This document shows positions 18,998-22,337 of a DNA stretch of 64,000 nucleotides, one piece after another. Each line of letters begins with the position of its first letter. The first letter of the stretch is position 1. Source of the stretch: a virus. The DNA lies in IMG/VR virus record IMGVR_UViG_3300023202_000383, positions 124,001 through 188,000 of that record; one strand, given 5' to 3'. The position numbers and the translations under genes are program-made. The notes below the pieces were generated by a model, which made no database searches, was not told the origin of the DNA, and worked only from the letters and a program-made list of their open reading frames with translations.

Positions 18998-19717
18998 ATG
19001 GATGACACACCGAAACCATGCCCGTTTTGCGGGGAAGATGATGCATACTTCACCAGCCACTATGTATCGCCTAACGTAAGGGTCGCGTGTGGGACGTGTG
19101 GAGCATCCAGCATTGACAAGTGCTGCAAAGAGGACGCTGTGAAATTGTGGAATGCACGCGCCACCCCGAAGGCAGAGACAGTGGGTCGAATCACAGAAAG
19201 GAAGTGCAAAATGAACTTTGAGCCAACACACACAATGGGAAAGAATGGACCAAGATGCAAGCCCCTAAACTTTGAGTCTGATCATATATCTAACGAATGC
19301 CTATTAGATAACGGCGTGGTTGTTGAGGTTCCAACGCTTGATCTCATTCCCATTAACCCACCGCTCAAGTGCGAGCCGGAGTACGTGACGGTTCGGAGGT
19401 TGATCGACGGGTACGGTGCAATGCATCGTGATTGGTGGACCAGCCGGGACCCGGACAGCGTGAAACACCACACGAACACAGGCGATGAGCGCACGTTCCT
19501 CGTCGGAGTGCCTATGGTCGAAGAGTTTGTCGAGCATTTCGACGTAGGGATCAAGGGCTATAAGTGGGGTGGCATCTCATTCAGCCCGCTCGGAGATGAT
19601 TTTAAGTTCCGATCGTTAATACCATGCAAGGAAACGTTGGACGAAGCTCGCATTGCGGTATGGGAATACATGATCGAGCACGAGCCCGACAAAGCACGGG
19701 CATGGATTGAGCAGTGA
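18998..19717 (+). CDS. Lar-like restriction-alleviation zinc ribbon with extra C-terminal domain
   Basis: Residues 5-55 (PKPCPFCGEDDAYFTSHY, RVACGTCGASSIDKC, DAVKLWNAR) match the Lar/RalR zinc ribbon with two CxxC knuckles and the conserved W-N-R end. Lar proteins protect DNA from type I restriction. The remaining 180 residues (VTVRRLIDGYGAMHRDWWT, KWGGISFSPLGDDFKF) are not recognised. GC content is visibly higher than in the neighbours, suggesting recent acquisition. Confidence 0.75.
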   Translation: MDDTPKPCPFCGEDDAYFTSHYVSPNVRVACGTCGASSIDKCCKEDAVKLWNARATPKAETVGRITERKCKMNFEPTHTMGKNGPRCKPLNFESDHISNECLLDNGVVVEVPTLDLIPINPPLKCEPEYVTVRRLIDGYGAMHRDWWTSRDPDSVKHHTNTGDERTFLVGVPMVEEFVEHFDVGIKGYKWGGISFSPLGDDFKFRSLIPCKETLDEARIAVWEYMIEHEPDKARAWIEQ

Positions 19718-19994: not shown

Positions 19995-20067
19995 CCGCAT
20001 TTAGCTCAATTTGGTAGAGCGCTCGCTTTGGGGCGAGAGGTTGCAAGTTCAAATCTTGCAATGCGGA
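19995..20067 (+). tRNA. tRNA-Pro(TGG), unusual anticodon loop
   Basis: Acceptor CCGCATT/AATGCGG, D-arm GCTC/GAGC, T-arm GCAAG/CTTGC, discriminator A, TT follows. The anticodon arm CTCG-CTTTGGGG-CGAG has an 8-nt loop with 4 bp, or a 6-nt loop with 5 bp, not the normal 7. Confidence 0.82.
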
Positions 20068-20102: not shown

Positions 20103-21020
20103 ATGAAATTCAATGAAATCGACTGGGATCTAATACAATCAGATTATGATTCGGGCCTTACTCTTAGGCAGGTTGGCAAGAGACATAAAATTGGCAATTC
20201 TAGTATCCATAAAGCACAAAAATCAGGACTTCTTAAGACTACGCGGAAGCGATCGTTATCAGAAGAGCATAGAAAAAAGCTTTCTGATAGTATGAAAAAA
20301 GCTGGTATAAGACCGCCCACAACTGTCAAGAGAGAAATTTCAAGCACTAAAGCATGTACTAAATGTACATGCTTGAAACCTATTAATCAATTCCATAAAA
20401 AAGATGGAGCATATGATGGTAGGCAATCAATATGCAAATCGTGCCGCAATATTCATGGTAGAAAATATATGTGCAAGCCGCATATAAACAAAAAACTCAA
20501 GAAACGAAAAGAAGAAATAAAATACAGAAATCAGAGATATATTAAAGAATATTTGTCGATGCATTCATGCAAGTGTGGTGTCGATGACATCAGACTTCTT
20601 GAATTCCACCATCTTAAAAATAAAAAATATGAAGTCCATCAAATGGTGTGGCACAAGTTAGAATCCATAGATAAAGAAATCGCAAAATGTGTTGTTTTGT
20701 GTGTTAATTGTCATAGAAGAGAAACAAATAAAGATAACCCTAGAGAGAATCAGAAGCATCGCAGGGCCATAAAATACAAATTAATAGAAGAAATTCATGG
20801 TACTAAATGTGTGGAGTGTGGGCTTGACGATAAGATAATTATGGATTTAAACCATATCGACCCAACGACCAAATTATTCAATATTGGCGGGTGGTCTGCG
20901 GGCGATACTGATGTATTGATTAAAGAGATAAAGAAATGTGAGCTTATCTGCCCTAATTGTCATCGTCTCAAAACTATTACACAGTCCGACAATTACCTTC
21001 ACAGGATAAAGGAGGCCTAA
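20103..21020 (+). CDS. HTH + double zinc-ribbon/HNH homing endonuclease, 305 aa
   Basis: Residues 1-45 are a helix-turn-helix (LRQVGKRHKIGNSSIHKAQ), then a zinc ribbon (CTKCTCLKPINQFHKKDG, CKSC). Two HNH-like units follow: LLEFHHLKNKK...CVVLCVNCHRRE and LNHIDPTTKLF...CELICPNCHRLK. Free-standing mobile gene between tRNA-Pro and the release factor; GGAGG at its 3' end serves the next gene. Confidence 0.85.
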   Translation: MKFNEIDWDLIQSDYDSGLTLRQVGKRHKIGNSSIHKAQKSGLLKTTRKRSLSEEHRKKLSDSMKKAGIRPPTTVKREISSTKACTKCTCLKPINQFHKKDGAYDGRQSICKSCRNIHGRKYMCKPHINKKLKKRKEEIKYRNQRYIKEYLSMHSCKCGVDDIRLLEFHHLKNKKYEVHQMVWHKLESIDKEIAKCVVLCVNCHRRETNKDNPRENQKHRRAIKYKLIEEIHGTKCVECGLDDKIIMDLNHIDPTTKLFNIGGWSAGDTDVLIKEIKKCELICPNCHRLKTITQSDNYLHRIKEA

Positions 21021-21021
21021 A

Positions 21022-21794
21022 ATGGCCAGGAAACCAAGAATACCGGTTAAGAACAGGGGGCGGCTTTGACTCCGCTAAGAATGGTGGAGTAAGGGGGTGT
21101 CTTTGAAAATGCCACTGAAATTATCGTCGAAATCCAATTTGGCGAAGGTGGCGATGATAGCAAGTTGTTTGTGGACGACCTGTTATCTGCTTACTTGAAA
21201 TATGCCAAGTCGCTCGGTTTTAAGTCCGATCTGATATTCTCAGATAACGGGCATGCTACAATTAAAATCATTGGTAACAATGTTTGGAAGGCTTTTAGAT
21301 ATGAGCCTGGTAAACATTGTGTTCAGCGTATCCCACCAACAGAGAGCAAGGGTAGAGCGCAGACTTCTATTGTTTCTGTGGCTGTGTTGCCGATACCGCC
21401 CAAGATAGGCACTAAGCTTAAATCGAGTGATCTCAAAATTGAGAGGGTTAACCTCGGTGGAAAGGGCGGACAGCACCAGAATAAGACTCTATCTGGTTGC
21501 AGAATGACTCATATTCCAACTGGCCTTAAAGCAACCATCAATGGTAGAGATTACCATAGCAATGAGCGGGAAGCTAAGAGGATACTGGCTGCTAGAGTTC
21601 AGGAGCTTAAACAATCTAAAGCCAATGCTAATTACTCCGCAAAAAGAGTTGAGCAACTTGGGGGCGGAGGCAGGAGCGATAAGGTGAGAACTTACAACTT
21701 CATTAAATCTAGGGTTGTAGACCATAATCTTGGCACTAAGACCAGGAACATCAAGCAAGTGATGAAGGGCAACTTTGAGCTGTTGTTGAAATAA
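21022..21794 (+). CDS. peptide chain release factor (RF1-type body) with two prfB-like +1 frameshift sites
   Basis: GGAGG precedes ATG 21022. The frame reads 15 codons to AGG-GGG-CGG-CTT-TGA (21055-21069); +1 shift gives 12 codons to AGG-GGG-TGT-CTT-TGA (21092-21106); a second +1 shift enters the main frame at GAA 21105. Both sites copy the E. coli prfB signal (AGGGGG, 3 nt, CTTTGA). The joined product is about 256 residues, lacking RF domain 1. Seen: IQFGEGGDDSKLFVDDLL, the stop-recognition region RIPPTESKGRAQTS (PPT, compare PAT of RF1), the catalytic GGQ in LGGKGGQHQNKT, and RSDKVRTYNF as in RF1. It should hydrolyse peptidyl-tRNA at stop codons; the PxT motif predicts UAA/UAG. Confidence 0.88.
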
Positions 21795-22179: not shown

Positions 22180-22265
22180 TATTTAATATTAACCAAGTAA
22201 ATGACGATAGAGAAGGTAAAGACCACCGTTTGTTCTTGGCGTTGAATATAAATGTGTCCCTGTAG
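22119..22265 (+). CDS. possible small protein ending in the tRNA-Arg first base
   Basis: TTG 22119 opens 48 codons (…KEPGGRIVFNINQVNDD…) in a frame different from the gene above and stops at TAG 22263-22265, whose G is base 1 of tRNA-Arg(CCT). Weak start; support is mainly the coding-like composition and the repeated TAG/tRNA junction. Confidence 0.25.
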   Translation: MSTLQRLWKIPVAKEPGGRIVFNINQVNDDREGKDHRLFLALNINVSL

Positions 22266-22337
22266 CCCCCATCGGTTAATTGGATAAACCACGGGCTTCC
22301 TAAGCCTGGACTGCAGGTTCGAATCCTGCTGGGGGTA
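22265..22337 (+). tRNA. tRNA-Arg(CCT)
   Basis: Acceptor GCCCCCA/TGGGGGT, D-stem GGTT/AACC, anticodon arm CGGGC-TTCCTAA-GCCTG, T-loop TTCGAAT, discriminator A, TT follows. Confidence 0.92.

Follow-up and report, generated by a model that had tools for sequence, protein, structure and literature searches.

A phage gene for a short RF1-type release factor with two prfB-like +1 shift sites in series

A phage genome known at this locus from a single metagenomic record carries a gene that appears to encode a short RF1-type release factor and to gate its synthesis through two consecutive programmed +1 frameshifts, an arrangement that would make the gene a sensor of slow termination. We put the probability of this reading at about 0.85. 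The gene occupies positions 21022-21794 of the window (the whole stretch of 64,000 nucleotides that was analysed), and two +1 shifts, AGGGGGCGGCTTTGAC and AGGGGGTGTCTTTGAA, yield a 256-residue protein. A preliminary description of this DNA had placed two motifs at 21055 and 21092, each with AGGGGG at the spacing found in prfB, and both were exact to the base. AGGGGG CGG CTT TGA C lies at 21055-21070 and AGGGGG TGT CTT TGA A at 21092-21107, so that the base after the stop (+4) is C at site 1 and A at site 2. Site 1, AGGGGGCGGCTTTGA, spans 21055-21069, and site 2, AGGGGGTGTCTTTGA, spans 21092-21106. When CTTT is taken as a single leucine at each site, the translation runs from ATG 21022 to the terminal TAA and contains PCRF and RF-1 domains. 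Without any shift the window sequence translates to 15 residues, and with one shift to 27. The features of the gene are listed in Table 1.

Table 1. Features of the release-factor gene and its shift sites, in window coordinates
Feature	Position	Strand	Basis or location
AAGGAGG ribosome-binding site, for the leader open reading frame	21009..21015	+	Read directly; within the 3' end of the upstream gene (20103-21020)
Frame-0 leader open reading frame, ATG to first TGA, MARKPRIPVKNRGRL	21022..21069	+	
Internal Shine-Dalgarno-like AGGGGG of site 1	21055..21060	+	
Shift site 1, CTT TGA C; predicted +1 slip to UUU, then GAC	21064..21070	+	
Second frame segment, DSAKNGGVRGCL, closed by the second TGA	21068..21106	+	
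TAA in the release-factor frame, between the sites; bars a single -1 bypass	21090..21092	+	
Internal Shine-Dalgarno-like AGGGGG of site 2	21092..21097	+	
Shift site 2, CTT TGA A; predicted +1 slip, then GAA	21101..21107	+	
Release-factor body, RF1 domains 2-4 without domain 1, stop TAA 21792-21794	21105..21794	+	
Tip motif Pro-Pro-Thr (PxT, RF1 type)	21333..21341	+	Alignment to RF1 structures
Catalytic Gly-Gly-Gln	21465..21473	+	

The two sites stand well above chance expectation. Across the whole 256,507-base phage record, the pattern AGGGGGNNNCTTTRR matched only at these two positions, and its reversed-pattern control gave 0 matches. Shuffles of the window averaged 0.15 matches when one mismatch was allowed; both real matches are exact. 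Passing Salmonella prfB (AGGGGGTATCTTTGAC) and Staphylococcus prfB (AGGGGGTCTCTTTGAC) through the same pipeline returned a motif and spacing identical to those in the window. A Shine-Dalgarno-like element is present at fixed spacing 5' of CTT at both sites. Its pairing energy with the anti-Shine-Dalgarno sequence is -9.4 at site 1, a value equalled by 0.7% of background positions, and -12.5 at site 2, which beats all 600 background positions sampled.

By profile, tree, tip motif and predicted fold, the product is a short RF1 without domain 1 and not RF2. Its Pfam domains are PCRF and RF-1, and its NCBIfam scores are 224 bits for RF1, 134 for RF2 and 50 for prfH. The RF1 profile was matched from position 102 on, and domain 1 is therefore absent. 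Neither the RF1 equivalog cut-off of 400 bits nor the RF2 cut-off of 370 was reached, and the tip is PPT, as in RF1, not SPF. On these sequence grounds, the product is a short relative of RF1 rather than a standard prfA. RF1 also ranked top among PDB sequences, with 156 bits versus 113 for RF2. In a tree with bacterial RF1 and RF2, the product fell in a phage clade (support 100/99) beside RF1 and was split from RF2 at 100/100; branching within the phage clade was poorly resolved. The AlphaFold2 model (pLDDT 87.6, with low confidence at residues 10-23 in the shift region) found its best structural match in ribosome-bound RF1, with a TM-score of about 0.82, and GGQ is intact. Homology to eRF1/aRF1, the type of giant-virus R726, was considered and rejected, the domains being those of bacterial RF-1/PCRF.

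Relatives were gathered from viral contigs, phage records and bacterial genomes. The preliminary description had named conservation in related genes as a check, and conservation was found: 31 distinct loci, the window included, carry a total of 38 CTT-stop +1 sites, with seven loci being tandem and 24 single-site. The stop is TGA at 18 sites, TAG at 17 and TAA at 3. Tandem pairs are TGA+TGA in the window and L092, TAG+TAG in L003 (with AGGGGG at both sites) and L041, TAG+TGA in L043/L044, TAA+TGA in L036 (LR756511, 595 kb), and TAA+TAG in L295. Relatives that encode the protein in one frame, which had been proposed as evidence against the sites, do exist (L040, L303, L459 and the TGA-recoded huge phages L085-L088), but 31 loci keep them. 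Odd members include L042 and L047, with an in-frame TGA, and L297, with GTT-TGA; L302 was placed in neither the site-bearing nor the site-less set.

The sites follow a common pattern. CTT makes up 1.7% of codons in window open reading frames of at least 120 residues, yet 31 of 34 frame-broken genes have it directly 5' of the stop that blocks them. C follows the stop (+4) at 23 of 32 clade sites, and TGT is the codon 5' of CTT at 16 of 32. When chains were searched with shifts permitted at every stop, the CTT sites came out again in the loci covered; L298/L299, which lack a good Shine-Dalgarno at the start, were the exception and were assigned by eye. Pattern scans of viral contig DNA returned chance matches and no additional release-factor gene, and no near-identical phage records were found for the window phage. 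Between L455 and L456, the upstream spacer and domain 2 are nearly identical and the leader peptide is strongly divergent. Within that divergent leader a TGTCTTTARC block is retained, reading TAG in one and TAA in the other. Similarly, site 1 is TAA in L036 versus TAG in L043, with an identical CTTTGAC at site 2. Both comparisons are as would be expected if selection acts on the shift signal rather than on the leader peptide. The tree, poorly resolved as it is, requires at least 10 changes in site number and at least 8 in the identity of the last stop.

Several relatives were noted for other reasons. In L042 (2980-3684) and L047 (2962-3669), the leader TGA is in the frame of domain 2, and readthrough may replace frameshifting, as can be compared with Mimivirus R726. 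L089 (1492-2149; LR745208, a 485 kb phage) encodes a related protein resembling release factors, with GGAGGGGTCTTTGAC as an internal site and a tip loop without PxT. The RF1 genes of L085-L088, from phages of 634-735 kb, belong to the same RF1 clade, contain in-frame TGA read as sense and lack a shift site, which would be expected if only UAA/UAG release is needed there. Finally, 5 of the 53 Obscuribacterales genomes searched (L214, L215, L217, L223 and L379) carry this short RF1 too, with one CTT-TAGC site, located among ordinary bacterial genes as an extra copy besides the usual release-factor genes. Domestication of a phage gene is a possible origin of these copies.

In prfB, when the stop is read slowly, the tRNA on CUU can slip to UUU, aided by the internal Shine-Dalgarno. 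On the reading we favour, a ribosome starting at 21022 would pause when CUU occupies its P site and UGA its A site, with AGGGGG pairing holding it from behind. A release factor arriving first would set free a 15-residue peptide. If termination were slow, the P-site tRNA would slip from CUU to UUU and the ribosome would go on translating in the +1 frame until it met a second, similar checkpoint. The enzyme would come only from ribosomes that had slipped twice, and output would scale approximately with the squared probability of slipping at a single site. As a sensor of slow termination, the gene would add RF1 when the infected cell is short of release activity. We infer efficient slipping, a response of slipping to the amount of release factor, and production of the enzyme during infection.

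What such a loop would sense depends on the stops. RF1 of the PxT type acts at UAA and UAG but not at UGA. Relatives whose sites are TAG or TAA would have an RF1 that represses its own synthesis directly. Direct feedback is not obvious in the window phage because both of its stops are UGA, which canonical RF1 does not read. With TGA twice, control would lie with host RF2, and relief would be indirect through the phage RF1 taking over UAA termination. Direct control by UGA termination, as originally proposed, is not supported, given an RF1-type product and relatives whose sites are TAG about as often as TGA. The proposed very steep response is plausible as far as modelling goes: when synthesis was changed 10-fold in a minimal feedback model, the enzyme changed 2.6-fold with two sites versus 3.5-fold with one. 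Stops are exchanged freely across the clade, as they are not in prfB, and this argues either for a general sensor of termination stress or for an enzyme that reads all three stops.

The second option corresponds to a phage RF1 of widened specificity that also reads UGA, which would make every site a direct negative feedback and is the only way in which the TGA sites of the window would close a direct loop. We consider this unlikely, although it has points in its favour. Stops at the sites are interchangeable without the PxT tip motif changing alongside, and bacterial prfB never uses the non-cognate TAG (PMC12421855). The clade also has helix-5 GGxDSK rather than GGxEA, and the GR of the tip loop is followed by Arg or Lys, as in RF2, together with Gln or His. 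Against it, PxT and the overall affinity to RF1 predict reading of UAA and UAG only, and the Gln/His variation is independent of the stop used; across the clade, no association was seen between stop identity and tip-loop residues.

Alternatively, the sites could be a fixed throttle rather than sensors, with two leaky steps holding a potentially toxic release factor low and constant. An excess of RF2 is reported to be toxic (PMC12421855), and slipping would be inefficient at the many sites where no strong Shine-Dalgarno is present. By pairing energy, the internal Shine-Dalgarno was in the top 5% at 3 of 7 second tandem sites and at 4 of 18 single sites in the clade. Slip efficiency may differ widely between relatives because several of their sites have no recognisable internal Shine-Dalgarno. 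However, a weak ribosome-binding site would serve equally well as a throttle. Moreover, the slippery CTT, the weak +4 C and a true stop are kept as stop identity changes, and these are the needs of a step sensitive to release factor. We therefore regard a fixed throttle as improbable, and more so than widened specificity.

A stable hairpin, CTCCGCTAAGAATGGTGGAG, was predicted at 21071-21090, beginning right after site 1 and ending just before the site 2 Shine-Dalgarno. The inter-site segment containing it has a z-score of about -2.8 versus mononucleotide shuffles. The other six tandem loci gave no prediction of a comparable stable hairpin, and a conserved RNA structure was rejected as a general element. 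An Rfam search near the gene found tRNAs only.

Returning to the proposed pair of serial shifts, we considered whether the protein could arise by another route, such as readthrough of a stop, re-initiation or a single -1 shift. Relative to the start, the release-factor frame lies at +2, which equals -1, and a single -1 shift was therefore checked. It cannot replace two +1 shifts because the TAA at 21090-21092 is in the release-factor frame between the sites. Readthrough of the first stop halts at TAA 21076 and of the second at TGA 21116. The earliest ATG, GTG or TTG in the release-factor frame, at 21165, is already inside domain 2. Hence, neither a -1 shift, nor readthrough of either stop, nor a downstream start that keeps domain 2 whole can substitute. 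This bears out the original claim that the frames join into one 256-residue release factor only via both +1 shifts. In all seven tandem loci, likewise, a stop in the release-factor frame separates the sites and readthrough meets another stop, and the inter-site spacing ranges from 34 to 70 nt, always 3n + 1. The in-frame TGA that replaces the shift in L042 and L047 means that readthrough may be used there, but for the tandem loci another route is very improbable.

Equally hard to sustain is the first proposal, that the product is RF2 under direct RF2-type autoregulation via UGA. The prfB-type tandem sites on which it was built are real, with the same motif and spacing, but profiles (224 vs 134 bits), tree, tip motif and fold all point to RF1, and relatives carry TAG at their sites. 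That two base changes in a dead or mis-sequenced gene created the sites is a reading we dismiss: although the window locus comes from one metagenomic record, seven tandem and 24 single-site loci with divergent proteins, mostly from separate assemblies, break at CTT-stop with GGQ and tip motifs largely intact, and sequencing error is excluded as a general explanation because 31 loci carry such sites.

The sampled genomes use the standard code with all three stops, and called genes of the window phage end in TAA (42%), TAG (25%) or TGA (34%). An alternative genetic code was thus rejected for the window phage and the sampled relatives. Exactly one RF-1-domain gene (PF00472) was detected in each of 15 other phage records and in the window's record, and so no separate RF2 was seen in these 16 records. 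We called 26 tRNA genes in the window, and tRNAs adjoin the release-factor genes of several relatives. Just upstream of the release-factor neighbourhood, at 19995-20067, is a tRNA gene with a two-base anticodon call by ARAGORN, an Rfam tRNA score of 47.7 bits and an unusual anticodon loop. A tRNA-Arg(CCT) at 22265-22337, 470 bases downstream, reads the AGG codons of both Shine-Dalgarno elements, possibly by coincidence. The protein encoded at 18998-19717 has an N-terminal Lar restriction-alleviation domain.

The closest known system is bacterial prfB, which shares AGGGGG, three bases, CTT, a stop and, at site 1 and most clade sites, a following C, as well as a +1 slip and a release-factor product (PMC12421855). 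It differs in that the phage product is RF1-type without domain 1, the window has two sites in series, and the phage site sometimes lies within domain 2 (L049, L089, L230 and L300). In a survey of 12,753 genomes, the prfB motif had TGA in 98.6%, TAA in 1.4% and TAG in 0 of 8,164, whereas TAG is as common as TGA in the phage clade; the same survey reported no convincing programmed frameshift in prfA (PMC12421855). Bacterial prfA shares domains 2-4, the PxT and GGQ motifs and the fold, and unlike the phage RF1 it has domain 1. Among viruses, Mimivirus R726 is an eRF1-type gene with one readthrough and one CUU UAG C shift, demonstrated in E. coli, and Megavirus mg280 has UAA at that shift site (PMC3521657). 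These genes, too, encode viral release factors (class I) that require recoding twice, once at a CUU UAG C or CUU UAA C whose stop varies between relatives (PMC3521657). They are eukaryotic/archaeal-type genes of amoeba viruses that combine UGA readthrough with a shift, in contrast to a bacterial-type RF1 with two +1 shifts. Retroviral gag-pro-pol likewise has two successive shifts whose effects multiply in series (PMC5009743), but they are -1 shifts without stop-codon sensing that control a ratio. A review stated that readthrough autoregulation is used by no bacterial RF2 gene and gave a UAG/RF1 counterpart as also unknown, the giant-virus case being the only one (PMC5009743). Text searches of the literature, covering mostly open-access papers and few preprints, found no frameshift in a phage release-factor gene, and the tandem pair is, as the preliminary description had supposed, undescribed in the literature searched.

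What is new is that large phages repeatedly carry RF1-type genes whose shift sites contain UAG, UAA or UGA, and that some bacterial contigs have them as well. Gene annotation is affected directly, as plain open-reading-frame calls drop the start and the beginning of domain 2 of such genes. We tentatively suggest, as a possibility that we would not yet favour, that the clade is an RF1 mirror of RF2 autoregulation in large phages, with one or two checkpoints at which UGA, UAG and UAA are exchangeable and an enzyme that may read all three stops. If so, mixed pairs (TAG+TGA, TAA+TGA and TAA+TAG) would be AND gates sensing a shortage of more than one release activity. The natural series of genes with zero, one or two sites and varied stops makes both the self-reading of the loop and its gain directly testable, and it bears on why phages carry release factors at all.
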